Origin: a virus
Direction: 5' to 3' (one strand)
IMG/VR virus record: IMGVR_UViG_3300005253_000038
Span: 1-49,078 of that record
Length of the DNA: 49,078 nucleotides
The notes below the pieces were generated by a model. The model worked only from the letters and a program-made list of their open reading frames with translations, had not been told where the DNA came from and made no database searches. Shown piece after piece: positions 122 through 40,997 of the stretch. Every line of letters begins with the position of its first letter. The stretch's first letter is position 1. A program made the translations under genes and the position numbers.

Positions 122-3100
122 AAACACCGAGACCTTCACCGGAAGGTTAATCAACGAGATAGGCGACTTCGCCGCCAAAGGGGCCGCGGTCAAGTTCGGC
201 GTACCCACCAGAGGATTTATTTCCAAGATGGCGGACCTCATGAAGTCTGCCGAGTCAATGGCGTTCTTGAGAATCAACCCCGGTTACTTTGTTAGGAACT
301 TAGTAAATGGCGAGATGACGGGATTGGGAAGAATGGGCATTTTCTACCGCTTCGTTCCGGGCGGAATGCAGAAGATGCTCAACCGAATTGGTATCAGTCC
401 CACTCGATTGAGGGCTGGCTTCGGTATCGCGGGAGATGTTCCCGCTCACTACAAGAAGGTCGCCGGAGGACAGGAGGCCATTAAAGCCATTGATGATGTG
501 CTTCGCGGAATAGAGATGGGCGACCCGTCCGCGATGACGAACCTTGCCGAAAAGATACGCGGCGTGGATCTGCCCCTCGATTTCGGTGCGCTGTCTGCAA
601 AGGTGGAATCTAGCCAGTCCTATGCCTTAACTTCACGCGGCATCTTCGAGTACATGTCTTCTTACCACCAGGCCCCCGACATGCCTCCCGCTTTGATGAA
701 TGCTCTTGGCGATAGTCGCGCCGCTGCACTTAAGAAAGCAGTGGCAAGTTCATGGAATGACTTAGAAATTGACGATGTCTTTCTGAAACCTGCAGCTGCG
801 GGTTTGAATCCGCGGGCTGTTCTGGATGACGCCTCCGCTGCATTTGGCGAAGACATAATGCGAACCATTCCCGCGCCCGAAGCACAGGCAATGACCGACG
901 AGCTTATTGGGGCCTACAACAAGGGCGGCGCGACAGCGATGCGAGACACGGTCGAGAGACTGCGCGCCGAGACCGCATTACGCTACAGCGAAGCCCTCAA
1001 GGGCGCAACAGACGACATCACAAGAAACATCATTGACCACGTTCAAAATGGCGGAATTGACACTGCCCTGCACTATCACTCAGGAATGCTGGATGAGTTC
1101 TGGGGCACTGTCCACGGGAAGTACGTCGATGAATTCGGCGCCGTTTTTGAACAGATAAAGAATGCTGACCCGGCGGTAGCAGGCCCGTTGTGGAGCGCCG
1201 TTCGGACCAGAACAAGGACGTACTGGGATGAGAGCTGGGAATTATTCGAGGCGCAAGAGAAGGCCATCACGAAGGGCTTAAGGGCCTGGGGCAAAGACGC
1301 CGGAAATCCATTCCCCCACCTGGATGATTACGGAAGGTCATTCAAGGAGTGGCGTAAGGGGTGGAACGGTTTTTGGAAGACTCGCGACAACTTAATAGAC
1401 GAGTGGGTAGAAGCACGTAAGGCTGGCAAGCCCATTGACTACGAAGTAGTCAGAGGCCAGATTGACGAAGCCTACAAGGTCGCCATAGGGAACGAGGATG
1501 CAGCCTTCCGCCGGATGGACGAACTGATGGCGGGATACGCTCCCGGGGAGTTCCGCCCCCTCTACATGGCGGGCAGGAACGAAGTCGCTGGAACACGGCA
1601 GGTCATGCGCGAGCACGTCCAGAACTTCATGAACGACCCCCTTGGGGATGGTAGAGCCTACATCGACCTTACTAAAGACGAGCAGATTGGAGCCTTCCAG
1701 AGGTTCTGGAAAGACCGCAAGATTTACATAGACGAAATCTCTCAGGCAGAAGACAAGACCAGAGCAGCCATGTTTGGAGACCTTGAGGCTCGGGCAAGCT
1801 ACGACTCCATAATCCGCAACAATCAAGCAGTAGATGATGCTGTTGGCATCTGGGATCTGATGCGGCAGGAAGGTGATTTGCCCAGTCAGGTGGTCAAAGA
1901 GGGCGCGGAGGCAGCAGAAGAAATTGCAGAGGACGCATTTGGGCAGGCCCTCAAGAAAGCCCGCGCCGCCTGGAATGCTGGCGAGCGCGACCTCAATGTA
2001 CTCAGGGGCGAGTTTGACGAGGGCATGATAGGTGCTATGGAGCGGGCCGCCGCGGGTACAGATCCCGACGACTTCTTGAAGACCATGCTCAATGCGCCGG
2101 GAGAGGGAATAGCACACGAGGGCCAATTCGCCGGACAGGCTATCTCGGACGCCGAAGGGGTTATCGGCAGGATCGTTCCTGTTGAAAAGGGCCTTTACGA
2201 ACTCTGGAATATGAAGGGCTCCAAGGCATTAGACGCAATTGGCGAGTCGGTTATCAACCGTGGCAAGCTGCCTCCTATCAAGCTGGACGACCTGGATGAC
2301 GCAGCAAAGGCAGGCGTTCGCTCCTACATAGGCCAGTCCAAAGCCAACCTCACATCCTCCCGGTATCAAGCTATCAAGTTCGGGGAGTGGAAGCGGGACT
2401 CTGGCTTGCTGAATTACAGCCGCCGTCTTAATTACAACACGTGGCTGGGGACCGTCATGCCGTTCGAGTTCTGGACGACTACCTCCATTCGCAAGTGGGT
2501 GCTCCACACACTCAATAGACCCACGATGACCTCGTTTTATCTCAGAACACAGGACTTCTTAGAGAAGGGCTTTCGGCCAGAGGCGGGACTACCACAGAGG
2601 CTGGAGGGGCAAATCCGCATCAATGCGCCAATGCTGCCCGACTTCCTGGGGAATCAAATCTTTGCAGATCCCCTCAGTCTTGCTTTGCCATTCAAGCAAT
2701 GGGAGTACGCGCTGGACTCTTTGACGCAGGACGAGCAACGAGATGTCGGTAGAGCGCGTCGCGTTTTAGAAGAACTTTTACAGGACGGCGAGATTTCAGA
2801 CCAGCAGTATGCACTTGCTTTAGAGAACGAATCAGGCCCTGCGTGGGAGCGAGCAATAACACTCGCGAGGCTGGATGATACCGAGGGCCGTACCAGCATG
2901 TTCGATTTCATGTCGATGCTAACGGCTCCCCATGCCCCTATTTCGTGGGCGCATCAATTGCTGAAGGGCAAGAAAGAGGAGATAAGGACGTTCTTGCCTC
3001 TTACCCGCACAGTTAAAGGCGTCACTGCCCTCTTAGGTGTTGGCCCTGCAGGGGGGGTCAACATCGAGGGCAACATTAGAGAACACCTTGGCTTACCTCG

Positions 3101-5174
3101 CGTAGACCAGTATGACGACTACAGAACAAATCGTATGCTGGCGAACATGGTTGCGACCCTGGAGATTACGGCACAGGAAGCTGGCCTTGCAATGACCAGC
3201 CAACAAGGGGAACACTACGAAGAGGCTAAAAGACGTGCCGGAATTGAGTACGGGATAGGGGCCCTTGGGTCTACATTGGGCATGCCGATGAAAGCCTATC
3301 CTCCTGGCGAAGAGCATTTGAGGAAACTCAAAGATGACTACGAGGCGGCATGGGAACTGTACGAGTCGGGGGACGACACTGCCTTAAATGACTTCTATCG
3401 GGAGAACCCCGATTACGAGTCTCGTCAACTGGCGCTGGAGTTTGAACCCGAACAGCAGCTGCAGAAGTTCTTGATAGACGAGATATGGAACAAGTGGAAT
3501 GACTTGCCTGTCCAGCACAAGCGGGATGTAGCAGACGGCTTAGGCGAGGTCTTCCAGACTGCGTTTCTCAACAAAGACACGCACTCCACGGATAACTTAA
3601 GCACTGACATGCTGCAGGGGTGGCTGCAGATTATGGGCGGGGAAACTCCCGGCAAAGCAGAGTGGGACCAGGGTTTACATCCGATAGAGCTGACGGACCC
3701 TGCTATCGCGAAGCGTTTGGACGTCTTCTATCTCACGCGCAGTCAGAACTTTAGATACAACGAGAACGTCGCGCCATTATGGGACACCTACTTCAAACTG
3801 GATAAGCCCGCAAGGAAGAAGTTCTTCCGCGAGAACCCCATCCTGCAGCAGTACATCGACTGGCGCAACAACTTCATGTTTAGAAACCCAGAGCTTGCGC
3901 CGTATATCGAGGACGACCCCGACAAACTGCCCGTCTTTGAAAGCCTGGAGGAGCTGCAGGAGGCCCAGCAAGCGCAGCCTGACTTCACCTGGATGGAGTG
4001 GCAGAACGTACTGACGATGCCCATGTGGCGCCTGACAAGAGACATGATGCGCTACGGCGACACCTTGGGAGACTCCGAAATCGAGGAGCTGATGGACATC
4101 TCCGAGGGTATGGGCATTGAGGTTGAGGAGTTGTTGTTCAGGTTAGAGGGTGCCTACGAGGAGGCGGAGGGGGTGCAAAACGGAGGCCCATCGCCGTTAG
4201 CAGTAGACCAACAGAGCGCACCGGGGAACTTGGATGGTGGATTACCGTCTCTCCCCGGCGATGCTCCGCCCCAGGATTTGGTTCCTCTTCCGAACGAGGA
4301 TCAAGCCTCGTTTCTCCGCAGGGTACAGGAAGCGCAGGGAAGAGCGCTTACTGGAACTCTAGGATTAGGTGGCGAAAAACTTACCGGCAAAGCGAAGATA
4401 GACAGGGCCATATCGAGGATGAAAGAAGTCTTTCCCGGTTTGAAGCCGTGGATATTCAAGCACGCCCAACCAGCCATTGAGAACATAGACATCCGCGGAG
4501 AATTTGGTGGACTAGCACATAGGGATTTCCGCGTCGTGCGTACAGGACAGCGCTTCAGCGAGCAAGAGATTCCCAGTCTTATAGAGCTTGCTTATGGCAA
4601 CGATATATCCACATTCCTGCACGAACTCGCTCACCAGCTTGATACTGTGGGTGTTGGGCAAAGACTCTCCAAGAGTGTTAGCTTCAGGAAGGCCGTGGAA
4701 GAGGTTCTTTCTGATCCCTCTAGGGCTACTCCAGAGCATGTAGGTATGATTAACTTAATACGTCAATTCCCCGGTATAGCAGATGTTCCTCTTGATGTAA
4801 TACCGGAAGGGCAGTGGGGTGGAGAGGTTGAGCTTTTCGCCTCACTCATGGCTCAGTCTGGTGGTGATCTAGGGAAAATTCCAGAGCCACTAAAGCCATT
4901 CTATAGTCGCTTTATGGAGGACGCTCCGCCTGTCATTCTCCCCTCACAAGTTATTCCAGAGGGAGCCATTGAAGAAATAGGAACAATACTTGGAGAGAAC
5001 ACCGCATTCTTCATTGGCGAGAGAATAGGAGTATCCCAAGGTGGAGTATCTCAAGGTGATATACAAATATCAGACGGCGCGTTGGATGCGATACGATCCC
5101 GTGCTAGGGAGCTGGGCCTTGATCCAGAAGAAACCGTCGAAGACATACTCCGAATACTGGGAATTGATTTCTAA
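1..5174 (+). CDS. Giant polyvalent virion protein, C-terminal part with HEXXH peptidase domain
   Basis: This is the remainder of the gene begun at 47544; the in-frame ATG at 36 is internal. Near residue 2012 of the joined protein (4620-4634) is a HELAH zinc-peptidase motif preceded by STFL and followed by Gln-Leu-Asp. About 60 residues later comes an E-x-E-L-F-A segment that could supply the third zinc ligand, the arrangement seen in metallopeptidase domains of phage polyvalent proteins. A segment around 2450-2480 (PFEFW, then a TTTS/IRKW stretch) resembles another conserved block of such proteins. The middle is long, helical and repeat-poor. Likely an internal or ejected virion protein carrying a protease. 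Codon use matches the neighbours; no frameshift is seen. Confidence 0.85.
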   Translation, partial: SLGDKQDDFARMLEGFGIDPNITPEKLFEIFEPLAKGGMLNTETFTGRLINEIGDFAAKGAAVKFGVPTRGFISKMADLMKSAESMAFLRINPGYFVRNLVNGEMTGLGRMGIFYRFVPGGMQKMLNRIGISPTRLRAGFGIAGDVPAHYKKVAGGQEAIKAIDDVLRGIEMGDPSAMTNLAEKIRGVDLPLDFGALSAKVESSQSYALTSRGIFEYMSSYHQAPDMPPALMNALGDSRAAALKKAVASSWNDLEIDDVFLKPAAAGLNPRAVLDDASAAFGEDIMRTIPAPEAQAMTDELIGAYNKGGATAMRDTVERLRAETALRYSEALKGATDDITRNIIDHVQNGGIDTALHYHSGMLDEFWGTVHGKYVDEFGAVFEQIKNADPAVAGPLWSAVRTRTRTYWDESWELFEAQEKAITKGLRAWGKDAGNPFPHLDDYGRSFKEWRKGWNGFWKTRDNLIDEWVEARKAGKPIDYEVVRGQIDEAYKVAIGNEDAAFRRMDELMAGYAPGEFRPLYMAGRNEVAGTRQVMREHVQNFMNDPLGDGRAYIDLTKDEQIGAFQRFWKDRKIYIDEISQAEDKTRAAMFGDLEARASYDSIIRNNQAVDDAVGIWDLMRQEGDLPSQVVKEGAEAAEEIAEDAFGQALKKARAAWNAGERDLNVLRGEFDEGMIGAMERAAAGTDPDDFLKTMLNAPGEGIAHEGQFAGQAISDAEGVIGRIVPVEKGLYELWNMKGSKALDAIGESVINRGKLPPIKLDDLDDAAKAGVRSYIGQSKANLTSSRYQAIKFGEWKRDSGLLNYSRRLNYNTWLGTVMPFEFWTTTSIRKWVLHTLNRPTMTSFYLRTQDFLEKGFRPEAGLPQRLEGQIRINAPMLPDFLGNQIFADPLSLALPFKQWEYALDSLTQDEQRDVGRARRVLEELLQDGEISDQQYALALENESGPAWERAITLARLDDTEGRTSMFDFMSMLTAPHAPISWAHQLLKGKKEEIRTFLPLTRTVKGVTALLGVGPAGGVNIEGNIREHLGLPRVDQYDDYRTNRMLANMVATLEITAQEAGLAMTSQQGEHYEEAKRRAGIEYGIGALGSTLGMPMKAYPPGEEHLRKLKDDYEAAWELYESGDDTALNDFYRENPDYESRQLALEFEPEQQLQKFLIDEIWNKWNDLPVQHKRDVADGLGEVFQTAFLNKDTHSTDNLSTDMLQGWLQIMGGETPGKAEWDQGLHPIELTDPAIAKRLDVFYLTRSQNFRYNENVAPLWDTYFKLDKPARKKFFRENPILQQYIDWRNNFMFRNPELAPYIEDDPDKLPVFESLEELQEAQQAQPDFTWMEWQNVLTMPMWRLTRDMMRYGDTLGDSEIEELMDISEGMGIEVEELLFRLEGAYEEAEGVQNGGPSPLAVDQQSAPGNLDGGLPSLPGDAPPQDLVPLPNEDQASFLRRVQEAQGRALTGTLGLGGEKLTGKAKIDRAISRMKEVFPGLKPWIFKHAQPAIENIDIRGEFGGLAHRDFRVVRTGQRFSEQEIPSLIELAYGNDISTFLHELAHQLDTVGVGQRLSKSVSFRKAVEEVLSDPSRATPEHVGMINLIRQFPGIADVPLDVIPEGQWGGEVELFASLMAQSGGDLGKIPEPLKPFYSRFMEDAPPVILPSQVIPEGAIEEIGTILGENTAFFIGERIGVSQGGVSQGDIQISDGALDAIRSRARELGLDPEETVEDILRILGIDF

Positions 5175-5443
5175 TGTCGGAGACGCGCAAGCGGTTCCTT
5201 GAGCTAAAGAAGCAGAAGCAAGCAGAGAGAAAGCGCCTGAAAGGAATGGTAGTATGCCGCGGAAAGATAGAAAGACGAGGTGAAAAAGTGAAATGTGAAT
5301 ATGCACTGTTTCCAAGAAAGGACGCGGTTGACGCGGTGTTTACCTGCCACAGGTGCCACACCATTCACATCATGACGGTACATGGATGGCGCACCCTGAA
5401 AGAAGCGAACGCTAGCCGGATTGACAAAGGAGACGAACAATGA
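5174..5443 (+). CDS. Small basic zinc-ribbon-like protein
   Basis: This 89-residue protein starts at an ATG sharing one base with the stop of the giant gene (TAATG), so it is probably translationally coupled. The first 25 residues are Lys/Arg/Glu rich and helical. Cysteines at about 28, 40 and the pair in C-H-R-C-H near 57-60 suggest a single zinc ribbon, loosely like Com-type regulators of phage Mu. No enzyme motif is visible. It precedes another coupled gene, so the three form one transcription unit. Function unknown; nucleic-acid binding is a guess from charge and cysteines. Confidence 0.75.
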   Translation: MSETRKRFLELKKQKQAERKRLKGMVVCRGKIERRGEKVKCEYALFPRKDAVDAVFTCHRCHTIHIMTVHGWRTLKEANASRIDKGDEQ

Positions 5444-5991
5444 CCCAGATAAATACGTATGGGACGGGTAAGGTAACTGAAGCGGACAAGCGTGCAGCAG
5501 CAGAGCGCGCTAGGGAGGCGCAGCAGATTGCGGAGGCCGAACGCCTCGACACCGCGGTAGCAGGGGCGGACGCAGAGGCGGCCAAGCTCATCGCGGAGGA
5601 CATACTGAGGCGGGAGGAGAAACGCGTCCCCCCGCCCGAACCAGGGTCGCAAGCCGAAGCAGCCGAGCGCGAGGAGGACGAGGCGCGACTTGCTAAGCTG
5701 ATTGTTCAAGACAAGAGGAACACGAAAACCTTCTACAGCGGGATGAAGATGGCGATGGGCGCTGCCCTGAAGGCGTCCCCCCGCTCTGTTGAGGCGGGGC
5801 TGCTTTGCGGCAAGCATGGCTGGAACAACCCCCTCGCCGAGGGCTTGATGGGAATCAGCGATGCCGTCGGCGTTCCGCAAGATAAACTGAAATATCAGGA
5901 AGCTCTTCTGGAGAAATTCGCTCGCCTACTTCACGGCAATAACGGGACTATCGACAAAGATTATTTCGAGAATCCTCGAAGTTGGATGTAG
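5440..5991 (+). CDS. Hypothetical coiled-coil protein at end of the giant-protein operon
   Basis: 183 residues, ATGA overlap with the preceding stop. Residues 15-75 are an Ala/Glu/Arg-rich helix with heptad character, followed by a Pro-rich linker and a more compact C-terminal part (about 95-183). I do not recognise the family. Its position after the giant virion protein and before the capsid operon suggests a minor virion or assembly role. A strong hairpin follows 28 bases after the stop. Confidence 0.75.
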   Translation: MTQINTYGTGKVTEADKRAAAERAREAQQIAEAERLDTAVAGADAEAAKLIAEDILRREEKRVPPPEPGSQAEAAEREEDEARLAKLIVQDKRNTKTFYSGMKMAMGAALKASPRSVEAGLLCGKHGWNNPLAEGLMGISDAVGVPQDKLKYQEALLEKFARLLHGNNGTIDKDYFENPRSWM

Positions 5992-6018
5992 AATAGCCTT
6001 AGTAGGCCCTTGCTCCAC

Positions 6019-6055
6019 AAGCAGACAGCCCCTCGCGGGGCTGCTTGCTGTCTGG
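6019..6055. terminator. Convergent (bidirectional) hairpin terminator
   Basis: AGCCCC-TCGC-GGGGCT forms the inner stem, and CAAGCA/TGCTTG lies outside it with a small bulge. An alternative outer pairing, CAGACAGC with GCTGTCTG, shares the same bases. It lies between the stop of the rightward gene at 5991 and the end of the leftward gene at 6058, where a two-way terminator is expected. The U-tract is poor in both directions. Confidence 0.6.
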
Positions 6056-6057
6056 AC

Positions 6058-6249
6058 TCAGTATGGGGCGAAAACCAGAATGCCCACCACAAGCCCCACA
6101 ATAATCAGCAATGTCAAGATGCCCTTAAGCATAGGGTCCATATCGCCGGGCTTGACATCGTAGTTCGGGAAGCGGCTTGGCGCATGGGGGTCATACCCCG
6201 TCTTGGGGCTGTCGATATTTTTCATGATCTCGCGCTCGTGCTCATCCAT
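6058..6249 (-). CDS. Small single-span membrane protein, lone leftward gene in late region
   Basis: 63 residues. A hydrophilic N-terminus of about 40 residues is followed by one hydrophobic span (LKGILTLLIIVGLVVGILVF) ending almost at the C-terminus, a tail-anchored layout. The start at 6249 has a strong GGAGGAG ribosome site 2-3 bases upstream, and a TTGACT-18-TATACT promoter lies at 6275-6304. It points against all surrounding structural genes, so it is expressed separately, perhaps during lysogeny or as a small lysis or superinfection-exclusion protein. Function unknown. Confidence 0.75.
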   Translation of the reverse strand: MDEHEREIMKNIDSPKTGYDPHAPSRFPNYDVKPGDMDPMLKGILTLLIIVGLVVGILVFAPY

Positions 6250-6273
6250 GTCTCCTCCAAGAGGCGTTGCGTA

Positions 6274-6294
6274 TAGTATAATAACAACATAACC
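6274..6294 (+). promoter_or_regulatory. Repeated promoter-like element, copy A
   Basis: The element TAGTATAATAA-C-AACATAACC recurs at 20850-20870 with one base changed. It contains a perfect TATAAT (6277-6282) but no good -35 box at 16-18 bases. An intrinsic terminator begins about 35 bases further on. It lies upstream of the scaffold/capsid operon. Likely a late promoter, though a minus-strand promoter uses some of the same bases. Confidence 0.5.
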
Positions 6295-6304
6295 GAATAG
6301 TCAA
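6275..6304 (-). promoter_or_regulatory. Sigma70-like leftward promoter for the 6058-6249 gene
   Basis: On the minus strand TTGACT (6299-6304) is followed after 18 bases by TATACT (6275-6280). The predicted start is about 20 bases before the ATG at 6249. It overlaps the rightward TATAAT element in the same bases, so the two directions may compete. Confidence 0.6.
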
Positions 6305-6315
6305 ACGAGAGGCGC

Positions 6316-6345
6316 AAAGCCCCACCTAGCCGTGGGGCTTTTTTG
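6316..6345 (+). terminator. Intrinsic terminator directly after promoter copy A
   Basis: Stem AGCCCCAC/GTGGGGCT with a six-base loop is followed by six T, then GTCTTAA. The stem is preceded by GAGGCGCAA, as at 38230-38242. Placed about 30 bases after the likely transcription start and before the capsid operon, it would stop transcription unless modified. Confidence 0.75.
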
Positions 6346-6357
6346 TCTTAATTTCAT

Positions 6358-6425
6358 GGCGTGGCTCGGCAGGGCGGGGTTCGGTGCGGCAAGGCCTGGC
6401 GCGGTTTGTCTGGGCATGGCATGGC
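6358..6425. repeat. GGCNN pentanucleotide array (about 14 units)
   Basis: From 6358 the sequence reads as GGC or a one-base variant every five bases: GGCGT, GGCTC, GGCAG, GGCGG, GGTTC, GGTGC, GGCAA, GGCCT, GGCGC, GGTTT, GTCTG, GGCAT, GGCAT, GGCTA. It has no reading frame of note, lies just after a terminator and just before the capsid-operon promoter, and is strongly G-rich on this strand. Function unknown. Confidence 0.75.
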
Positions 6426-6439
6426 TAGCAATTATTAGG

Positions 6440-6468
6440 TTGCACATGATTGAAGATTAGGGTAAACT
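6440..6468 (+). promoter_or_regulatory. Sigma70-like promoter of scaffold/capsid operon
   Basis: TTGCAC (6440-6445), a 17-base spacer and TAAACT (6463-6468). It would start transcription near 6475, just ahead of the hairpin at 6489-6510 and the scaffold gene. The -35 and spacing are good; the -10 matches four of six bases. Confidence 0.5.
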
Positions 6469-6488
6469 AAACCTTGCAAGAGGAGCAG

Positions 6489-6518
6489 ATCCCTGCCATT
6501 CGGCGGGGATTTCGTCTT
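6489..6518 (+). terminator. Leader hairpin, terminator-like, upstream of scaffold gene
   Basis: ATCCCTGCC-ATTC-GGCGGGGAT forms a nine-base stem followed by TTCGTCTT. With its flanks (GCAAGAGG before, GTCTTAA after) it closely resembles the terminator at 38242-38274, so it belongs to the same leader family. The U-tract is weaker, so it may attenuate rather than stop transcription. Confidence 0.5.
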
Positions 6519-6536
6519 AAAAATCTAGGAGGCCTT

Positions 6537-7367
6537 ATGGCTGAAGAGACGCCTGCGGAGCCTCTCGTTGAGGAACCCGTTGCGCTGGCAAGCGCGACGC
6601 CTGAACCAGAGACTCCACCGGATTACGTTTCTGTGTCCGATTTTCAAGCGGCGCAGGAAGCACAGAAGGAAGAGCTGAAAGCGCAAGAAGATCGAATAGT
6701 AACCCGCTTGAAACAGAGTACCGGCGATAAGGTCAAAGCCGCCGTAACCAGTGAAGTTGCCGGGGTGCTGTCTGCGTACGATCAGGCTGCTGAGGATTTC
6801 CGCCCGTTCTTGAAAGAGGGCGCAGACCTCACAGAAATCAAACGCAATGCGGCCATCGACAAGCTTCTAGCGCAATCCACTTCGCCAGAACCGGAGTCGG
6901 AGCAGGAGACCCCACCACAGGTCGAAGCTCCCGAGCTTGCCAGCTCGCCCCCCGGAAGAGAGACGGAGATTGCGCAGATTTTGGAAACGACGGGTGTTTC
7001 GGGCAGCGAACCCGAGCTGACGGAGTATGCCGAGCAGAACAAGGGGAAGCCCTGGTTCCAGGTCGGCCAAGGATTTGAGGATTTAGCCAAGTCCATCGCA
7101 GCTCGCAGCGCCGGCACATCTGCCGGCGTGGTTCCGTCGCAAGGTCAGGTCGCGACAGAGGACCTGGCGAAAGAATTCCGACAGGAAGTTGACACCTATC
7201 TGTATCCAAAGGATTCAGAGGGCAAACTACTCGGGGGCGCAAGGCGAAATCCAAGTCAGCTCCGCCTACTACAGGCGAAGTATCGTGAGCTGGGCTTAAC
7301 AGAAGAGGATCTGAATATCAGCCCGCAAGGCAAAGCAGACCTCGACTGGAAACAAAGCCTCTATTAG
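6537..7367 (+). CDS. Putative capsid scaffolding protein
   Basis: 276 residues from ATG 6537, which has AGGAGG four bases upstream; an earlier in-frame TTG (6474) lies inside the leader and is unlikely. The first 40 residues are acidic and Pro/Glu rich, residues 35-80 are a charged helix, and a second Pro/Glu linker (about 110-140) separates a helical C-terminal part rich in Lys and Arg. Composition, size and position directly before the major capsid gene match phage scaffolding proteins, which assemble inside the procapsid and then leave. No protease domain is visible. The call rests on context; sequence similarity is not demonstrable by eye. Confidence 0.65.
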   Translation: MAEETPAEPLVEEPVALASATPEPETPPDYVSVSDFQAAQEAQKEELKAQEDRIVTRLKQSTGDKVKAAVTSEVAGVLSAYDQAAEDFRPFLKEGADLTEIKRNAAIDKLLAQSTSPEPESEQETPPQVEAPELASSPPGRETEIAQILETTGVSGSEPELTEYAEQNKGKPWFQVGQGFEDLAKSIAARSAGTSAGVVPSQGQVATEDLAKEFRQEVDTYLYPKDSEGKLLGGARRNPSQLRLLQAKYRELGLTEEDLNISPQGKADLDWKQSLY

Positions 7368-7399
7368 TCACTTCCCCTAAAAATTAAAAGGACAGAAAC

Positions 7400-8545
7400 A
7401 TGGCTACCCGAAAGGGACAGCAACCTACCTATTCGGCCACGATTCCTCAAAAGAGAGTCGTGACTGACAGAATTTTGTACACAGACGCCTGGGAAACCCC
7501 CGGCATTTTCGCTCTGGGGCTGAACAACGAGAGTTCGTTTGGCTTCGCGAATGGTCCCGGTGGACCCAACCAGCCGTACGAATGGCTATTGGATACGCGG
7601 CTGGATCGAACCGACGCCATCAACACCGCAGCTCTAACGAGTGATTCCACTTCAGTCACCATGACGGTGGACAGTGGTACGAACTTCCAGGTTGGAGACA
7701 TCGTGCTTGTCGATCTTGAGTACATGCACATCACTGCAATCTCCACCCATGCTCTAACCGTCACGCGAGCCTACGGAGGCACGCAGGCTACGCACGCGAA
7801 CAGCGCCGGAGTGACTATCGTTGGCCGGGCACGCGTCGAAGGTACGGATAGTACCGACTCAGCGTGGACCGAGGCAACCAGCGCCACGAACGCGACTCAG
7901 ATTTTCCACAAGGAAATCGACATCAGCCGGTCAGCTGCGAACCTGCAGCGATACGGCATTGGAAATCTAGTCGAGCGCGAAATCGACAAGGCGATGACGG
8001 AACTGCTTGGCCTGCTCAATCTGACGCTCTATCACGGTCAGCGCAAAGCAGGAAGCGCAAGCACGGTCTCTGCTATGGGCGGACTGGAGACCTACATCTC
8101 GACCAATATCAACACACTGAGTTCAACTCCAGCTTTGACCGAAGCAAATATCCAAGACGAGCTTCAAGACTGCTGGGATGCAGGAGGCGCACCGGATCTA
8201 ATTCTCTGCAACTCCTGGGGTAAGCGCAAGGTCGCTTCGTTCTATGCGGGTGCAATCCGCACCGAAAGGTCAGAGCGAATGGGCGGCATGGTCATCGACC
8301 GGATTCAAGGGTCGGTGGACGGCAACGAGCTGAACCTCGTGCTGGACCGACACTGCCCAACCGACAGTCTCTACATCTTGGACACCAGTACCTGTGGCTT
8401 TGTCACGATTGACCCGTTCTTCTGGGAGCCTTTGGGCAAAGTGGGCGACACCGCAGCTTTCGGGCAAGTCGTGGGCGAATACAGTTTCGTGCTCGCGCGA
8501 GAGAACTGGATGTCTGCCGTAGTCGGCTTTAGCACAAGCGCATAG
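7400..8545 (+). CDS. Major capsid protein, SU10-like (DUF5309) type
   Basis: 381 residues, ATG 7400 with AAAAGGA upstream. The order matches SU10-type capsid proteins: an N-terminal arm, a small beta-rich insertion (about 77-143, V/T/G rich with a GDIVLVDLEYMHI strand pair), then the block NATQIFHKEIDISRSAANLQ (164-183). After that come a long helix (191-209, VEREIDKAMTELLGLLN) and a beta-rich C-terminal domain. It follows the scaffold gene and precedes decoration-like genes. It should form the icosahedral shell. Length is normal for the family. No N-terminal prohead-protease cut site can be assigned. Confidence 0.8.
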   Translation: MATRKGQQPTYSATIPQKRVVTDRILYTDAWETPGIFALGLNNESSFGFANGPGGPNQPYEWLLDTRLDRTDAINTAALTSDSTSVTMTVDSGTNFQVGDIVLVDLEYMHITAISTHALTVTRAYGGTQATHANSAGVTIVGRARVEGTDSTDSAWTEATSATNATQIFHKEIDISRSAANLQRYGIGNLVEREIDKAMTELLGLLNLTLYHGQRKAGSASTVSAMGGLETYISTNINTLSSTPALTEANIQDELQDCWDAGGAPDLILCNSWGKRKVASFYAGAIRTERSERMGGMVIDRIQGSVDGNELNLVLDRHCPTDSLYILDTSTCGFVTIDPFFWEPLGKVGDTAAFGQVVGEYSFVLARENWMSAVVGFSTSA

Positions 8546-8554
8546 GAGGAAACA

Positions 8555-9190
8555 GTGGCTACTTCAACTAAAGCCCAGTTTCTGTTCCCCCCTGCGTATG
8601 GAGAAGGTGCCGGGAATGTCCTTCAGGCTTATGGCCCTGCCATGGCGCCTGAGGGTATGCCCGCCTGGTTATGGGGGCAGGGAACTCCCGGCGCTATCGT
8701 TCCCTTCACTACCGTAAACAAGGGGTCGCTTTATTCTGAGGTCAACACTACCGACGACGACCCCGCTTTGTGGTTCAAGGTCGATGAAGGCGGAGACGCC
8801 GCAGATTGGGTAAGCGTAGGCAAGACTGGCGTAGTTCATGTCAGGTCATCGCTATTCGACATCGACGCAGCCGACTCAGAGCAAGTGATGTTCCATGCCG
8901 TTACGGCGAGTGAAATCCTTGAGGTTGGAATACTCTGGGAAGAGGCCACCGGAACGTCCGGTGCCGTGCTGGGTGACATTACTATCGGCACGGCTACTGG
9001 CGGAGCTGAGATCGTAGCAGCAACAGCCTATGGCCTCTCACAGGCATCGGGCACCTACGTAACACTCACGCTGAAGGCGGCAGGGGCATCTCTGGCTGCA
9101 GGAACTTCCGTGTTTGCATCGCACGATGATGCTGGCACCAGCTTCAGTGGCACGTATCGGGTGTTGATGAAGATAAGAGTCGAGGCATAG
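8555..9190 (+). CDS. Decoration/head-fiber-like protein, copy 1 of tandem pair
   Basis: 211 residues, GTG 8555 with AGGAGGA five bases upstream. It is nearly all beta-strand and small residues, without cysteine. A block from about 43 to 85 (GTPGAIVPFTTVNKG, then DEGGDAADWV) and the C-terminal end (TSVFASHDDAG, LMKIRVEA) are repeated in the next gene. Many phages carry proteins of this kind directly after the capsid gene as head decoration or fiber subunits. Enzyme motifs are absent. The exact virion location is inferred. Confidence 0.7.
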   Translation: MATSTKAQFLFPPAYGEGAGNVLQAYGPAMAPEGMPAWLWGQGTPGAIVPFTTVNKGSLYSEVNTTDDDPALWFKVDEGGDAADWVSVGKTGVVHVRSSLFDIDAADSEQVMFHAVTASEILEVGILWEEATGTSGAVLGDITIGTATGGAEIVAATAYGLSQASGTYVTLTLKAAGASLAAGTSVFASHDDAGTSFSGTYRVLMKIRVEA

Positions 9191-9191
9191 A

Positions 9192-9815
9192 ATGGCCTCT
9201 TCAAATAAGGCTCTTGTCGTAGGACCCTCGGAGTATCCGGCAGCCGGAAGCAACTTTTCGGCTTATGGCTCTCCGCTGGCACCCGAGAATCAACCAGCAT
9301 GGCTGTGGGGGACAGGTACTCCCGCAGCCATCGCCCCATTTACAACCGTCAACAAGGGCGCAGTCTACTCCGAGGTTAATGCCGCGGATGACAACGCCTG
9401 TCTATGGATGAAGGTTGACGAGGGAGGCAATGCGGCGGACTGGGTGCGCCTGGGGAACACCGGCATCGTTATGGTCAAGTCGCTGTTGTATGACATCTCT
9501 CTGGCAGCCAGCGAGCAGGTGATCTTTAACGCAAGGACGGCTTGCGAGGTACTGGAGGCAGGCCTTATCTATAACGAAGCTACCGAAACATCGGGCGCAG
9601 CCGAAGGCGACATCACTATCGGCACCGCTACTGGCGGGGGCCAGATTGTGGCAGCTACGCCGTATGTTGCCGCGCAGGCAACAGGTTCTTACCAGGCCCT
9701 GGTGATTGCGGCGGGAGCCCTGGCTGCGGGAACATCTGTTTTCGCTTCGCACGATCAAGCAGCGTCAGCGGTTGGCACATGCTATCTACTGATGAAGATT
9801 CGGGTGGAAGCCTGA
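9192..9815 (+). CDS. Decoration/head-fiber-like protein, copy 2 of tandem pair
   Basis: 207 residues, starting one base after the stop of its paralogue. Around half of the positions appear identical to copy 1, most clearly in GTPAAIAPFTTVNKG, DEGGNAADWVRLG and the final LLMKIRVEA. The N-terminal PAWLWGTGTP block is also shared. The pair arose by tandem duplication and then diverged, mostly in the second half. Different surface roles are possible. It overlaps the next gene by up to 37 bases. Confidence 0.7.
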   Translation: MASSNKALVVGPSEYPAAGSNFSAYGSPLAPENQPAWLWGTGTPAAIAPFTTVNKGAVYSEVNAADDNACLWMKVDEGGNAADWVRLGNTGIVMVKSLLYDISLAASEQVIFNARTACEVLEAGLIYNEATETSGAAEGDITIGTATGGGQIVAATPYVAAQATGSYQALVIAAGALAAGTSVFASHDQAASAVGTCYLLMKIRVEA

Positions 9816-10489
9816 GAGCTTTCGTAATCGGCAACGGGCCGAGTTTAAACGACACGCCCGTAGACGGTTTGCGGAACGAGTTCACCATCGGCATGAATCG
9901 GTTCAACCTCTTGGGGTTGGACTGGGACCCCAACTGGTGGGTGATGGTAGATGTCAACCACGACGACGGTTGGTGGAACTGGGACGATCTGCTTTACCGG
10001 GATAGTACGTTTCTGTTCCGCGAGCACGACCGCGACTTGGTCGAGTCTTACAGAAAAGATGCCGTCTTTATAGATCACTGCATCCATCGCACATATCGAG
10101 GCGATGTGGACGAATGGGCCTGGCATCTTCCTGATCTATGTAGCAGGGGGGGAGGAGCAAGCATGGCGATACAGGTTGCCGCTTCTTTGGGTCATAACCC
10201 TATTTACCTTGTGGGCTGTGATCTGTATAAGTATCGCGGCCCAGACGATGTGGACGTGAATCACTTCGACCCTGATTACTGCCCCTACAAGATACGCAGG
10301 AGCACGGGCGAAGAGGTGATTGGTCCAGCAGATTGGGACAGGCTAAACAAGAGACTTATCAAGGCCCATACGATGGCCCGTGACTCTGCGGACAGTATGG
10401 GCCTTACTGTTGAGAACGCTACCGTGGGGGGACAGCTTGAGGTTTACCCGAGAGTTGACATCAACACGGTGCTGAATGGGAAGAATTAG
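9779..10489 (+). CDS. GNGPSL-motif GT42/DUF115-like protein, paralogue 1
   Basis: 236 residues from ATG 9779, or about 225 from a CTG at 9812 that follows a better GGTGGA site and places the motif near the N-terminus as in its paralogues. Features in order: VIGNGPSLN, then IGMNRFNLL, a central RGGGASMAIQVAA segment, IYLVGCDLY, NHFD and a C-terminal ENATVGGQLEVYPRVD. The G-N-G-P-S-L loop, the Asn of MNR and the S-x-x-M-x-x-x-A...G-x-D pattern occur in GT42 sialyltransferases and in MptE-like DUF115 proteins. Probably transfers or binds a nucleotide-linked group. Three relatives lie at 40.0-43.0 kb. Encoded straight after the decoration proteins, so glycosylation of virion protein is a reasonable inference. 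Confidence 0.65.
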   Translation: MLSTDEDSGGSLRAFVIGNGPSLNDTPVDGLRNEFTIGMNRFNLLGLDWDPNWWVMVDVNHDDGWWNWDDLLYRDSTFLFREHDRDLVESYRKDAVFIDHCIHRTYRGDVDEWAWHLPDLCSRGGGASMAIQVAASLGHNPIYLVGCDLYKYRGPDDVDVNHFDPDYCPYKIRRSTGEEVIGPADWDRLNKRLIKAHTMARDSADSMGLTVENATVGGQLEVYPRVDINTVLNGKN

Positions 10490-11219
10490 AAAGAAGCCCG
10501 ACACCGTTCCTGCGTCATCATCTCTTGGCAAGGCGAAGATTGCCGAAATAATCCAGGAGATGAAGGACAAGGGTGAGCTACCCGAGACGCACATCGAGGA
10601 GGACCGCGAAGAGATAACGATGGTGCGCGCCACCCCGATTTGCTGGGGGGTGTGCTTCGACGAAGTCGTCTTCGCAAGGTGGGCAAAGCACATGCTGGCA
10701 AGCGTGCGTGTCCAGCCGTGGGATGACGTTATCGTGGCCGGTAGCACGTACCTACCAGATGCAAGGAACCTTGTCCATGACCAGTTTCTGGACCGGAGCG
10801 ATGCCGAATACCTGTTCATGCTCGATAGTGACGTATTAATTCCGCCCACGGCTATCGCGAAGCTGCTCAAGCACATGGAGCGCAGAAAAGACGTGCGCAT
10901 AGTTGGAGGTTGGTACAAGAAGAAGGCAGAGCCCTATGGCCCTGTCGTGTATCACGAAAACGGTTGGGAGGACGGCATCGCGCAGTACACGCAGTATGGA
11001 CAGAACGAGATTGGCGAAGGATTGGAAAAGGTGGACGCCGCAGGGGCAGGGTTCTGGATGGTTCACAGGAGCGTAGTGGAAGCATTAGGTGAAAGCCCCT
11101 TCTGTATGGAGGAGGGTGGAGAAGACCTCGTCTTCTGTCGAAAGGTTCAAAAGGCAGGATTCGATTTGTTTATTGACTGGAGCCTAGCCGCGGCTCATTG
11201 TGGGGTTGCTGTCGCATAA
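10476..11219 (+). CDS. GT-A fold glycosyltransferase-like protein
   Basis: 247 residues, overlapping the GNGPSL gene by 14 bases. After a basic N-terminal tail of about 45 residues comes a glycosyltransferase core. YLFMLDSDV carries a D-x-D type metal and nucleotide-sugar motif (117-119), followed by VGGWYKKK (about 143) and a late G-E-D-L-V-F-C block in the position of the catalytic acid region. A terminal His sits in AAHCG. It likely transfers a sugar from a nucleotide donor. Overlap with its neighbour suggests both act in one pathway. Target could be capsid decoration proteins or host surface glycans; the sequence does not decide. Confidence 0.7.
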   Translation: MGRIRKKPDTVPASSSLGKAKIAEIIQEMKDKGELPETHIEEDREEITMVRATPICWGVCFDEVVFARWAKHMLASVRVQPWDDVIVAGSTYLPDARNLVHDQFLDRSDAEYLFMLDSDVLIPPTAIAKLLKHMERRKDVRIVGGWYKKKAEPYGPVVYHENGWEDGIAQYTQYGQNEIGEGLEKVDAAGAGFWMVHRSVVEALGESPFCMEEGGEDLVFCRKVQKAGFDLFIDWSLAAAHCGVAVA

Positions 11220-11235
11220 CTAAAAGGAGAATGAA

Positions 11236-11520
11236 ATGCCACCACTTTATCGCAGGGTCAATGTCACCGCCGACGCCGTAGTTTCTGCAACGCCGACCTC
11301 CCTGATGGGCGTACTCGTGAACGCAAACAATGCCGACTGGAAATTAGAATTGACGGATAGCGGAAGTTCCACGGGAACCAACGTTCTTGAACTCGCGGGG
11401 CAGCTAGAGGGAGGACAAACTTTTTTCGATTTCAGTAACTTCGAGGGCGTTCTTTTCCCGACCACGGGAATTTTTTGCGATTTGACCGGCGCAACGCACG
11501 TGACGTTCTGGCTTAAGTAA
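11236..11520 (+). CDS. Small beta-rich structural protein
   Basis: 94 residues, start preceded by AAAGGAGAATGAA. Mostly beta-prone with few charges (SATPTSLMGVLVN, LELTDSGSSTGTN) and ending in FWLK. I recognise no family. Its stop overlaps the next start (TAATG). Position among head/tail genes suggests a minor virion or head-completion protein. Confidence 0.65.
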   Translation: MPPLYRRVNVTADAVVSATPTSLMGVLVNANNADWKLELTDSGSSTGTNVLELAGQLEGGQTFFDFSNFEGVLFPTTGIFCDLTGATHVTFWLK

Positions 11521-11828
11521 TGGCGGAAGTCGAGAATATTCAATACGGAAACATCTGGACCGGCGAGCGCGCTGGGTCGGCAACCGCCGTCCAGCTTGCG
11601 GCTCGCAAATGCCGCATGGTGATGTTCGTGGCGCCCAACGGGAACGCCAGCGACGTGTATTTGGGCGGGTCCGGGGTGACGGTGGCCGCAGGTACGACCA
11701 CGACTACCGCTGGCTACGAACTGCAGCCCGGCGCCCAGACACCCTGGATACCCTGCTTCAACCTGAACCAGTTCTACATCATCTGTGACGCGAGTGACGA
11801 CGACATTCTATGGATGGCGGTGGAGTGA
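11520..11828 (+). CDS. Small structural protein
   Basis: 102 residues, coupled to the previous gene by one shared base. Strand-rich with a Gly/Thr segment (GSGVTVAAGTTTTTAG, about 58-73) and a hydrophobic C-terminal half (NLNQFYIICDASDDDILWMAVE). This pattern of two strands and an aromatic end is common in small phage virion proteins that follow capsid genes. No assigned function. Confidence 0.65.
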   Translation: MAEVENIQYGNIWTGERAGSATAVQLAARKCRMVMFVAPNGNASDVYLGGSGVTVAAGTTTTTAGYELQPGAQTPWIPCFNLNQFYIICDASDDDILWMAVE

Positions 11829-11876
11829 AGACGTGAGCGAAATCTTTAGTGCGGCAGAGCAGTGGAGGGATTACCC

Positions 11877-11945
11877 ATGAAGAAACTATGGGCGGCGACA
11901 GTCCCGGCGCTGGATCGGTGGGTGGAGGCAGATAGTGGCTCGTAA
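11877..11945 (+). CDS. Possible 22-residue peptide
   Basis: A short frame with a strong GGAGGG site seven bases before its ATG, encoding a peptide that begins MKKLWAATVPALDRWVE. Its end overlaps the GTG start of the lectin-like gene at 11935. A 15-residue frame (11833-11880) precedes it with an ATGA overlap. It may act only as a translational lead-in for the next gene. Confidence 0.3.
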   Translation: MKKLWAATVPALDRWVEADSGS

Positions 11946-12687
11946 GGGCAACGGTTCCAGCGACTACATTCTCTGCGATACGGTTTTTTCTACGCCGACC
12001 GCTTACAGTTTCCATTTCTGGTACAGGAATGACACCACCCAAATAGCAGTAATTAATCAGCCGTTTGCTATTGATCTTTCCGCTGGCACAGGGGCGGGCT
12101 TCTCATGGGACCATAGCAATGTCGATTTTCGGCAGGCAATCTTTCATCATACCGGATCGACTTGGACAAAGGCGAAGATTGCCTCGGCGCTTTCTGCCGA
12201 TACATGGTACGGGATCGGCGGTCGATGGAATGGGTCAAATTTACTAGAGGTCTTTTTGAATGGGGTGGCTGACGGAAGCGATACGCCAGACGGAATAACA
12301 TCTAGTGCTGCATATAAATTGGGCCTGTTTGCAAGCAAACACGGAACCGACGAGTTCGACGACGGCGAGCTTGCCGAGGTTGTTCTTTATTTAAATGTCG
12401 CTCTATCGGATGCCGAGATGCTGGCTTTGGGCAAGGGTGTTTCGCCCCTATTGGTTAGACCCGGCTCAATCACAAAACATCTAAAACTAATTCGACCAAT
12501 GAGTGAAGAATTCGGGGACACACTGACGATAAGCGGCACGACCGTTGTCGCTCATCCCCCCAAGATCATCTACCCCGCGCCGCCGTTTATCAGCTACCCA
12601 ACAGCCGCGGCACCGGCGGGAAACGCACCCACGGGCCACCTTCTGGGACCCCTCTACGGACCCCTCGGAGGCCCGATAGCAGTATAG
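11935..12687 (+). CDS. LamG/concanavalin-like lectin-fold protein, putative adhesion
   Basis: 250 residues, GTG 11935 with GGAGG upstream. Residues about 20-165 follow the LamG jelly-roll order: a YSFHFWYR strand, then WYGIGGRWNGSNLLEVFLNGV, then a DDGELAEVVLYLNVALSDAEMLAL segment. These are the usual hallmarks of LamG-3 domains, which bind glycans or proteins. The last 70 residues are Pro/Gly rich (LLGPLYGPLGGP), probably an attachment tail. Likely a virion-surface or receptor-contact protein. Confidence 0.7.
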   Translation: MARKGNGSSDYILCDTVFSTPTAYSFHFWYRNDTTQIAVINQPFAIDLSAGTGAGFSWDHSNVDFRQAIFHHTGSTWTKAKIASALSADTWYGIGGRWNGSNLLEVFLNGVADGSDTPDGITSSAAYKLGLFASKHGTDEFDDGELAEVVLYLNVALSDAEMLALGKGVSPLLVRPGSITKHLKLIRPMSEEFGDTLTISGTTVVAHPPKIIYPAPPFISYPTAAAPAGNAPTGHLLGPLYGPLGGPIAV

Positions 12688-31367: not shown

Positions 31368-31723
31368 TTGACGAATTACCCGAAGACCAGCGTGAACTTC
31401 TATTAGAGAGGTTAGGTGAGGAGTTGATAGAGGAGATAGCAGCGGAGGCTAAGAGTGTGACGTCTTTTTACAACTTGTGCATCAGGGCGGTGGGTTCGCC
31501 GCGGACTGTCAAGTCGAGGCGCATACCCACACCCATGAGTGCATGGGACGAGATATACGGCAAGAGGCGGGAGTCGGAGCCGGAGTTTTCACATCCCATG
31601 ATAGCCAAGGTGGTGAAGCATTTCGGAGGGTGGAGTCGTATGTGGTTGGACTTCAGTAAGAAGCGGGAAGAGAAGGCGAGGAATACTTTCATTATGAAAT
31701 TCAAGGATGCCATCGGTGGGTAA
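31364..31723 (+). CDS. Replication-associated helical protein (possible loader/partner)
   Basis: 119 residues, ATGA overlap with the initiator-like gene. An acidic N-terminal helix (ELLLERLGEELIEEIAAEA) is followed by a basic linker (VKSRRIPTPMSAWDEIYGKRR, split) and a C-terminal block, HPMIAKVVKHFGGWSRMW with NTFIMKFKDAI. That block resembles the C-terminal end of phage replication proteins. Together with the previous gene it may represent a split two-domain initiator or an initiator plus helicase loader. Confidence 0.5.
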   Translation: MIDELPEDQRELLLERLGEELIEEIAAEAKSVTSFYNLCIRAVGSPRTVKSRRIPTPMSAWDEIYGKRRESEPEFSHPMIAKVVKHFGGWSRMWLDFSKKREEKARNTFIMKFKDAIGG

Positions 31724-32702
31724 CGACATTATCAAAGCTATATCAACAGAGGAGTTCCAGGCTACACCCGTCGGGTTGGTGCTGCCCGAGAACAAGGTTG
31801 CTTACCAACAATGGGAGGAGTACGGGCATAGCTTGCGCGGTGTGGAGGGCGCGCTTCAGTGGGTGATTGGGGACTGGCTCAGGTATGGGGAGTTCGCCTA
31901 TGGGGAGAAGTATGCGCAGGCTGCTTCCGTCTGGCCCGACTCCAAGATAAACACGCTCATGGAGTACCAGAGGATAGCAAACGCCTATACGTATGCAGAA
32001 CGCTCCAGACGTCTGGACTGGTCACACTTTCAGGTTGCTGCTACTACGAAGAAGAAATTGAGGGGCCAGTTACTAGCTGATGCGGAGAACAACGAATGGA
32101 CAGTAAAGGAACTCAAAGCATCGGTTCGTAGGCACGAAATAGGGGAGATAAAAGAGGAAGAGATACAGGTAGCGGAGGGGCTATACAGCGCCATCTCCTG
32201 CGACCCGCCCTGGCCCTATGACCGAGCCAACCACAAGCAGCCGTGGGAAACATACGACCGAGCTGGTCGACGCGCTGCATCACCATACCCAGAGATGAGC
32301 CTGTTGGAGATAGCAGCCAACGCTCCCCCGGCTGCAGACGACAGCCTGCTGTTCTTGTGGACGACACATGCGTTCATGCGTGATGCCTATACGTTGCTGG
32401 ATCTGTGGGAGTTCAAGCCCAAGACGGTTATTACATGGGTCAAGGACCAGATGGGGCTGGGCGTGTGGCTCCGTAGCAAAAGCGAGTTCTGCATCATGGC
32501 CGTGAAGGGCAAGCCAAAGGTTGCATTGGTGAGTCAAACAACTGTTGTTGAGGGACCGCTGAGAGAACACAGCCGCAAGCCAGACGAATTCTACGAGATG
32601 GTGGATAGCTTAGTTCCGAACGAGTACCGCAAGCTCGACATGTATAGCAGGGAAAGCAGAGAGGGCTGGGACCAGTATGGTAACGAAGCAGATAAGTTTT
32701 AG
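31707..32702 (+). CDS. MT-A70 family adenine N6-methyltransferase
   Basis: 331 residues from ATG 31707, with GTG 31716 as an alternative. The C-terminal half is an MT-A70 catalytic domain: AISCDPPWPYD with DPPW at 166-169, LLFLWTTHAFM, VITWVKDQMGLGVWLRS (split) and a final KPDEFYEMVDSLVP. DPPW binds the target adenine. The N-terminal 150 residues are helical, with WVIGDWLRYGEFAYGEKY and a HFQVAA segment, probably a DNA-recognition or ParB-like part. It likely protects phage DNA from host restriction. No cognate nuclease is obvious. Confidence 0.85.
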   Translation: MPSVGNDIIKAISTEEFQATPVGLVLPENKVAYQQWEEYGHSLRGVEGALQWVIGDWLRYGEFAYGEKYAQAASVWPDSKINTLMEYQRIANAYTYAERSRRLDWSHFQVAATTKKKLRGQLLADAENNEWTVKELKASVRRHEIGEIKEEEIQVAEGLYSAISCDPPWPYDRANHKQPWETYDRAGRRAASPYPEMSLLEIAANAPPAADDSLLFLWTTHAFMRDAYTLLDLWEFKPKTVITWVKDQMGLGVWLRSKSEFCIMAVKGKPKVALVSQTTVVEGPLREHSRKPDEFYEMVDSLVPNEYRKLDMYSRESREGWDQYGNEADKF

Positions 32703-40005: not shown

Positions 40006-40725
40006 ATGGACCGAATATTCCTGGTAGGGAACGGACCGTCGCTTTCGGAGACCGACCTCTCCAAAACAGAGGTCTCTTTCGGCATGAACCGGATTCACCT
40101 GATCTATCCTCATACCTCATGGCGGCCTACGCACTATATGTGGTCCGACCACCCACAACACCGGGTCCACGCCGAGGAGATTATTTCAGAACATATCTCT
40201 CAAGGATATGACGTGTGGCTAAGAGACGACGTGGCCGAAATCATTACTGGTGACTACGTGTGCACCTTTGGGGAACTGGAAAACGCCCTCGAAGAACTTC
40301 CCCCTCACGTCCACGCCTGGGAGAGGTGTGTAAAACATATCGCCGCCCACTATGACGACGACATGCGCCCCGATGAGTTCTGTGAAAGGTTTATCGACGA
40401 GAGAAAATTCTGTAAATACGGATCTGGTATGAGTTCCATGATCCAGCACGCGGTTGACTGGGGCTACAACGAATTAATACTGGTCGGCTGCGACCTTAAC
40501 TACAGAACCGACGTTGACGGTTATGACCCCAATCACTTCGACGGTTCTTATAACCCCATAGGTTTTTGGGACGAAGAGAACGTCCACAGACACTACGAAA
40601 CCATACGGCACGGCCACAAGCTGGCCTCTAAGTGGGCCAGGGAAAACAATATTCAAATCTTGAACGCTACTATTGGTGGGAATTTAGAAGAATACGAGAG
40701 AGTGGACTTCGACTCACTATTTTAG
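40006..40725 (+). CDS. GNGPSL-motif GT42/DUF115-like protein, paralogue 2
   Basis: 239 residues from ATG 40006 (no ribosome site; an upstream TTG at 39949 would add 19 residues). FLVGNGPSL, FGMNRIHLIYPHTSWRP, KYGSGMSSMIQHA, ELILVGCDLNY, NHFD and LNATIGGNLEEYERVDF match paralogues 1 and 3 in order. A His pair in RHGHKLA lies where GT42 sialyltransferases have their general base. Acidic centre (about 75-130) differs between paralogues and may define substrate. Probably a cytosolic transferase. Confidence 0.65.
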   Translation: MDRIFLVGNGPSLSETDLSKTEVSFGMNRIHLIYPHTSWRPTHYMWSDHPQHRVHAEEIISEHISQGYDVWLRDDVAEIITGDYVCTFGELENALEELPPHVHAWERCVKHIAAHYDDDMRPDEFCERFIDERKFCKYGSGMSSMIQHAVDWGYNELILVGCDLNYRTDVDGYDPNHFDGSYNPIGFWDEENVHRHYETIRHGHKLASKWARENNIQILNATIGGNLEEYERVDFDSLF

Positions 40726-40733
40726 GAGGAGAC

Positions 40734-40997
40734 ATGAATACTTTTCGTTCTGTTACGGATATAGCTAAAGCCTACGAGGGCAAAATCCCCGACACGCTTT
40801 TGGAATTGCACAGGTCGGGCGATGGCAATAAATCATTTGTCTCTCTCGTCGTCACGCAAGAAATGCCCGCAGAATTAGAACGCAAGCAAAGCGATTACGA
40901 ACTGAAGTTGCACCTCGCCGGGATAGCGTTGGCTTGGCGGTCGCATCTCGTGCTGGAAGAGATTCGCGGACCGGAACAACTGGATGCTGAAGCTTAG
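40734..40997 (+). CDS. Hypothetical protein within the glycan block
   Basis: 87 residues from ATG 40734, ribosome site AGGAGGAGAC. Mixed helix (VTDIAKAYEGKIPDTLLEL, split) and strand (SFVSLVVTQEM), ending in an acidic helix. Overlaps the methyltransferase by 14 bases. Not recognised. Confidence 0.6.
   Translation: MNTFRSVTDIAKAYEGKIPDTLLELHRSGDGNKSFVSLVVTQEMPAELERKQSDYELKLHLAGIALAWRSHLVLEEIRGPEQLDAEA

Follow-up and report, generated by a model that had tools for sequence, protein, structure and literature searches.

Sialyltransferase-type enzymes in a probable glycosylation cassette among the head and packaging genes of a phage

Two gene blocks in a very probably complete phage genome

Why does a phage carry, among its head and packaging genes, four open reading frames (ORFs) sharing the motif GNGPSL together with a glycosyltransferase and a methyltransferase, and what might their products modify? 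The window, that is, the whole 49,078-nt stretch of environmental viral DNA analysed here, begins and ends with an exact direct repeat of 121 bases (1-121 = 48958-49078), and its two ends align with different parts of one long protein in a related phage, so that it very probably represents a complete, circularly permuted genome. The presence of a tyrosine-type phage integrase (29041-29907, minus strand; PF00589, E 9e-28) indicates that the phage is probably temperate. We found no integrase match in the related records G001 and G004, the latter probably also a complete phage, with 91-base end repeats. The window also encodes a DNA methyltransferase-like ORF (31707-32702, plus strand; phrog_359, E 1e-46), probably the source of the MT-A70 family match among its ORFs, and a protein matching the RNA ligase family PF09414 (E 5e-16).

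The first block runs in the order MCP, two paralogous decoration-like genes, copy A and GT2; the second comprises copy B, a small ORF, the methyltransferase, copy C, copy D and TerL:

7400-8545, plus strand: major capsid protein (MCP), SU10-type; phrog_1328, E 6e-41, with PF17236 (SU10_MCP) among the window Pfam matches
8555-9190, plus strand: candidate capsid decoration protein 1, possible acceptor; paralogue of the 9192 product
9192-9815, plus strand: candidate capsid decoration protein 2, possible acceptor; paralogue of the 8555 product
9779-10489, plus strand: copy A, PF01973/GT42-like enzyme, 236 aa; PF01973 match and AlphaFold model
10476-11219, plus strand: GT-A glycosyltransferase (GT2, phrog_1574-like); PF00535, E 2e-6; phrog_1574, E 3e-13
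40006-40725 (frame 39949), plus strand: copy B, PF01973/GT42-like enzyme; full-length homology to A and C
40984-41526, plus strand: SAM methyltransferase (Methyltransf_24); PF13578, E 1.2e-7
41707-42426 (frame 41674), plus strand: copy C, PF01973/GT42-like enzyme; full-length homology
42410 or 42437 to 43027 (frame 42335), start uncertain, plus strand: copy D, PF01973/GT42-like enzyme of another clade; PF01973 match and AlphaFold model
43009-44610, plus strand: terminase large subunit (TerL), directly 3' of copy D; phrog_38, E 1.5e-45

Copy A overlaps both of its neighbours, by 37 bases with the 9192 gene and by 14 bases with GT2. The original prediction of a SAM methyltransferase flanked by further copies upstream of a terminase was borne out, and so was that of a GT-A enzyme placed after two decoration genes as far as the enzyme is concerned: it has the PF00535 domain, a DSD motif (within 'MLDSDV') and the expected position. 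The word 'decoration' has a different basis. The 8555 and 9192 products are mutual paralogues (E 3.5e-78) encoded directly after the MCP, no family match names either of them, and the label comes from this position. An antisense ORF of 251 aa (41362-42117, minus strand) spans the methyltransferase and copy C and is probably a side effect of the coding sequence on the opposite strand.

Three paralogues and one distant relative

Translated in all six frames, the window contains GNGPSL exactly four times, compared with a mean of 0 in 200 codon-shuffled windows, which excludes chance for its presence in the four ORFs. All four, at 9779, 40006, 41707 and about 42410 on the plus strand, encode small single-domain proteins (195-240 aa) and display the motifs that had been described for them: an x-N-R motif (MNR/MNR/VNR/CNR), a G-x-D block (GCD/GCD/GCD/GLD) and, in three copies, NATVGG/NATIGG/NATIGG, where the fourth has NISDY. 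They also have a conserved histidine in common. Pairwise BLASTP comparison nevertheless separates them, since copies A, B and C match one another over their full length (E 1e-18 to 1e-25), whereas copy D matches these three over 28-44 residues only (E 6e-5 to 2e-8). The set thus consists of three true paralogues and one distant relative rather than of four paralogues, as had been proposed.

The same division emerges from phylogeny. A 128-member tree places copies A, B and C within a virus-only clade of 17 rows (support 100/99), and copy D, on a long end branch, belongs to a separate clade of 13 rows (support 100/99). Syntenic orthologues were found for each of the first three: for copy A in G001 (L046:9235-9930), likewise after an MCP and a decoration-like pair; for copy B upstream of TerL in both G004 (L007/L047) and G001 (L004/L045); and for copy C upstream of TerL in G004 (L007:1697-2404). 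Since such orthologues exist in one related phage for copies A and C and in two for copy B, the paralogy of A-C is old and has been maintained, and the fact that the copies split before the phages did and were kept apart argues for separate functions. No gene of the copy-D clade was detected in the G001 and G004 records which, together with its placement in another clade, suggests that copy D was probably gained separately. A recent tandem duplication of all four genes can be rejected, given the separate orthologues of A, B and C in other phages and the different clade of D.

A search of viral contigs with the alignment of the four proteins retrieved 40 loci. In the full alignment of 46 sequences, no segment was conserved strongly enough to serve for a scan of the collection. 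Viral-contig searches with single proteins (copy A; TerL) gave no match, and neither did tblastn searches of 50,697 phage records with copies A and C, L040, L025, L020 and the methyltransferase. Several loci from large viral contigs (L015, L016, L018, L022, L024, L026 and L027, around 7900-9250) form a separate PF01973 clade; in L015 and L018 the PF01973 gene is located just before a ribonucleotide reductase gene, not next to capsid genes, and its role may differ.

Family, fold and nucleotide pocket

Copy D matches PF01973 (Maf_flag10/MptE-like, the old DUF115) with 35.8 bits, above the cut-off of 34.6. Copy A remains under the cut-off (E 4.6e-6), and copies B and C, with E-values of 0.067 and 0.039 when searched alone, are joined to the family through their full-length homology to A. 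On these sequence grounds, we assign all four to the PF01973 superfamily. The GT42 profile PF06002 (CST-I) was matched by copy D alone and only below its cut-off, with 11.8 bits against 25. PHROG 4603, annotated as 'alpha-2,3-sialyltransferase', matched copies A (E 0.003) and B (E 2e-4) weakly and copies C and D not at all. All PDB sequences were searched with a profile of the four copies and then, with better results, with one of 46 viral relatives. This blind search placed the sialyltransferase CstII first (E 1e-8), followed by CstI (6e-7) and 9c08 (1.5e-5), then by Maf (0.002) and MptE (0.59). For GT2 and the methyltransferase, the PDB yielded no useful sequence relative.

AlphaFold models of copy A (m9b6e95031241, pLDDT 87) and copy D (m7ad6f1c16fd2, pLDDT 83) pointed to the same group of proteins. 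Their best structural match was Maf (5mu5; Z 14.3 for A and 14.5 for D), followed by CstII (Z 12.7 and 14.0), CstI (Z 12.4 and 13.9) and MptE (8sd5; Z 10.9 and 10.8). They also matched animal sialyltransferases and thiamine pyrophosphokinases (Z 9-10, with one value of 9.6), with the related folds overall spanning Z values of about 8-14.5 and the first unrelated folds appearing at 4.3 and 5.6. A Maf/GT42/MptE fold is therefore well supported by the predicted structures of copies A and D, and would extend to B and C by full-length homology. This agrees with the reported resemblance of the Maf_flag10 domain (pfam01973) to Cst-II (PMC11339370).

The residues expected around a nucleotide are also well conserved in the 46 viral members: G18 in 44, N19 in 42, G20 in all 46, P21, S22 and L23 in 45, N40 in 45, G146 and D148 in all 46, H162 in 45 and N213 in 43. 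In the HMM alignment, GNGPSL and N40 coincide with the GNGPSL of CstII and with the asparagine of its 'FRCNQ' sequence. The suggestions that the motif loops resemble those of GT42 and DUF115 proteins, that the fold would do so too and that the nucleotide pocket would not be missing from all four copies thus agree with profiles, models and conserved positions alike. H162, the only histidine kept in nearly all 46 members, lies after the G-x-D block and is a candidate general base, although it is not paired in the HMM alignment with H188, the general base of CstII (PMC4202792), whose counterpart in CstI is H202. Divergence also affects the CstII pair N51/Q58: most of the copy-D clade retains it, with N-P-L-V-x-E-Q in place of the CstII N-P-S-L-F-F-E-Q (N51 to Q58, CstII numbering), whereas copies A-C lack it and have D or E instead of N51. 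Because PF06002 is matched under its cut-off and the catalytic base is a candidate, we file these proteins as GT42-like and not as GT42 proper.

Association with capsid and packaging genes in other phages

GT2 has orthologues with 70% identity in G004 and 50% in G001, and its dN of 0.25, far under a saturated dS, reveals clear purifying selection, as expected of a working gene. G001 repeats the block formed by the MCP, the decoration-like pair, copy A and GT2, and possesses three tandem copies upstream of TerL. In G004, GT2 lies behind the MCP, copy A and the decoration-like pair are missing, and a different methyltransferase (Methyltransf_23) sits between the PF01973 copies. As copy A and the pair are both present in G001 and both absent from G004, copy A may go with the 8555/9192 pair.

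The arrangement extends to phages with unrelated capsids. The order MCP, small protein(s), PF01973 gene is found in two unrelated MCP lineages, phrog_1328 (the window and G001) and phrog_1357 (L005, L010 and L011, with a single small protein). In L054, a further phage contig, an MCP (phrog_10), a PF01973 gene, a methyltransferase, a GT2 and a tail tube gene are all encoded within 8 kb, and methyltransferase relatives lie beside PF01973 genes in L050-L056. GT2 relatives occur directly after the MCP in Microcystis phage Mel-JY34 and, with one small gene in between, in MW202711. Counting one record per obvious duplicate group and treating records as independent, we found that 14 of the 19 records holding GT2 have it no more than 3 kb away from PF01973 (6.9 at random positions, P 4e-4), as do 8 of 10 for Methyltransf_24 (2.9 at random, P 2e-4). 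Glycosyltransferase genes are thus linked to capsid genes across phages, a property expected of a virion-glycosylation system. The recurrence of PF01973, GT2 and methyltransferase genes in related and unrelated phages, next to TerL or to an MCP and small protein, supports the original interpretation.

The donor sugar

No CMP-sugar synthetase (PF02348) was detected in the window genome or in G004; with an apparently complete phage genome devoid of this enzyme, any CMP-sugar donor must be supplied by the host. By contrast, sister virus branches (L050, L012/L014) do carry a CMP-sugar synthetase, which in L050 is directly 3' of a double-domain PF01973 member. The L012 region 840-12397 encodes a PF01973 protein, a GT29-like protein of 523 aa, a kinase-aldolase fusion, an SDR, nucleotidyltransferases and a CMP-sugar synthetase, a gene content that we interpret as a virus-borne CMP-sugar pathway. 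Among bacterial PF01973 loci, 14 of 58 have a CMP-sugar synthetase nearby, which in 11 cases is encoded on the same strand and no more than 3 kb away; one other nucleotidyltransferase query used as a control found 2 loci instead of 14, a rough comparison because the sensitivities of the queries differ. These gene neighbourhoods support a CMP-linked donor for the PF01973 family, although CMP sugars are not the sole sugars at the bacterial loci, which also hold GDP-mannose dehydratases. In several of them (L059, L060, L062, L065, L066, L102, L108 and others), a CMP-sugar synthetase, a 2-hydroxyacid dehydrogenase, an SDR, a cyclase or an HpcH-type aldolase recurs, possibly as part of an undescribed pathway for CMP-activated sugar acids.

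A possible virion glycosylation cassette and its alternatives

Sialyltransferase-type enzymes are probably part of a phage glycosylation cassette here. That the four copies, GT2 and the methyltransferase together glycosylate the virion, building a glycan on head proteins from a host CMP-sugar, is the interpretation that we favour, with evenly balanced confidence. Under it, the enzymes would be produced late, alongside the products of the head and packaging genes. GT2 would start the glycan by attaching a hexose to a capsid or decoration protein, or would extend it; copies A-D, each differing in acceptor or linkage, would then attach CMP-sugar residues, most likely by transferring a host-supplied, CMP-activated acidic sugar (nonulosonate- or other ulosonate-like); and the methyltransferase would cap the product, so that the virion would bear a glycan both charged and variable. 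For the window phage, we infer the late expression, the CMP-linked donor, the head-protein acceptor and the order of the steps.

The main rival, given the phage integrase, is that the enzymes act on the host surface, modifying lipopolysaccharide, capsule or another surface glycan, and so mask the receptor and shut out competing phages, as in lysogenic conversion or superinfection exclusion. We consider this rather unlikely, even if the phage is probably temperate, bacterial relatives occur in surface-polysaccharide-like clusters (with SDR, ABC transporter and GDP-mannose dehydratase genes) and the bacterial GT42 enzymes act on surface glycolipids (PMC4202792). In several phages whose capsids are unrelated, the genes lie inside the head and packaging block, share its orientation and overlap adjacent genes, whereas conversion genes usually stand apart. 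Moreover, the 12 Pfam families identified in the 53 other window proteins include no flippase or polymerase, and G004, probably complete and without integrase match, still keeps the set.

Two further readings would change the chemistry of the enzymes or their substrate. If the copies belonged to the MptE/thiamine pyrophosphokinase branch of the fold, they could be nucleotide-binding pyrophosphokinase-like enzymes or other transferases instead of glycosyltransferases, in keeping with the MptE-like name of PF01973, the structural matches to MptE and thiamine pyrophosphokinases and the D or E at the CstII N51 position in copies A-C. This seems improbable, considering that the E-values of the sequence profiles are seven orders of magnitude better for GT42 than for MptE, that structure favours Maf and CstII, that sugar and CMP-sugar genes are the neighbours, and that no pterin or folate family figures among the window Pfam matches. 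Some phages have glycosyltransferases that act on DNA (cited in PMC12619734), and GT2 and the PF01973 enzymes might add sugars to hydroxymethylated phage DNA. However, thymidylate synthase/hydroxymethylase (PF00303) is absent from the window genome and from G001, G004, G008, G022 and G007, and no base-hypermodification enzyme appears among the window Pfam matches; the absence of such genes makes this reading highly improbable, and we reject it.

To our knowledge, only a few phages are known to glycosylate their virions, the enzymes involved often being unclear, and a GT42/Maf-like type is not yet among them. Here, a recognisable sialyltransferase-type family is tied by its position to the capsid genes of several unrelated viruses, which makes a direct test possible through virion mass spectrometry and donor assays. 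The proposed activity would further provide small single-domain CMP-sugar transferases for glycoengineering, and it points to a reliance on host CMP-sugar in phages lacking donor synthesis.

Comparison with known systems

The GT42 enzymes CstI and CstII and their Pasteurella relative (1ro7, 2p2v, 9c08) are the best PDB sequence matches of the phage proteins (E 1e-8 to 1.5e-5) and match them structurally over the full domain, with the GNGPSL, N and G-x-D positions common to both. They differ in that the phage copies are only 13-16% identical to them, in that only the copy-D clade, for the most part, retains N51/Q58, and in genomic location, the phage genes being found in head operons and the GT42 genes in lipooligosaccharide loci. 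PHROG 4603 is comparable through its weak profile match to copies A and B, but not C and D. The MptE-type 6-hydroxymethylpterin pyrophosphokinase (8sd5) has the same Pfam family and fold but is a weaker match than GT42 and Maf in both sequence (E 0.59) and structure, and the phage genes have no pterin context. In mycobacteriophages, glycans occur on capsid and tail tube subunits and phage glycosyltransferases have been implicated (Freeman et al. 2023, cited in PMC12619734); unlike in the present case, no multi-copy GT42/Maf-like enzymes are described there, as far as the citing account goes.

The closest structural counterparts, with the top Z values and PF01973 in common, are the Maf flagellin glycosyltransferases (5mu5), which glycosylate a self-assembling structural protein using CMP-nonulosonates (PMC11339370). 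Maf, however, is a three-domain protein of about 630-670 residues, whereas the phage copies correspond to its central domain only, in 195-240 aa. Tentatively, the cassette may be a Maf-like phage system, in which several non-redundant single-domain CMP-ulosonate transferases would build an acidic, methyl-capped capsid glycan from a host donor, and which would have joined the head operons of unrelated phages independently.
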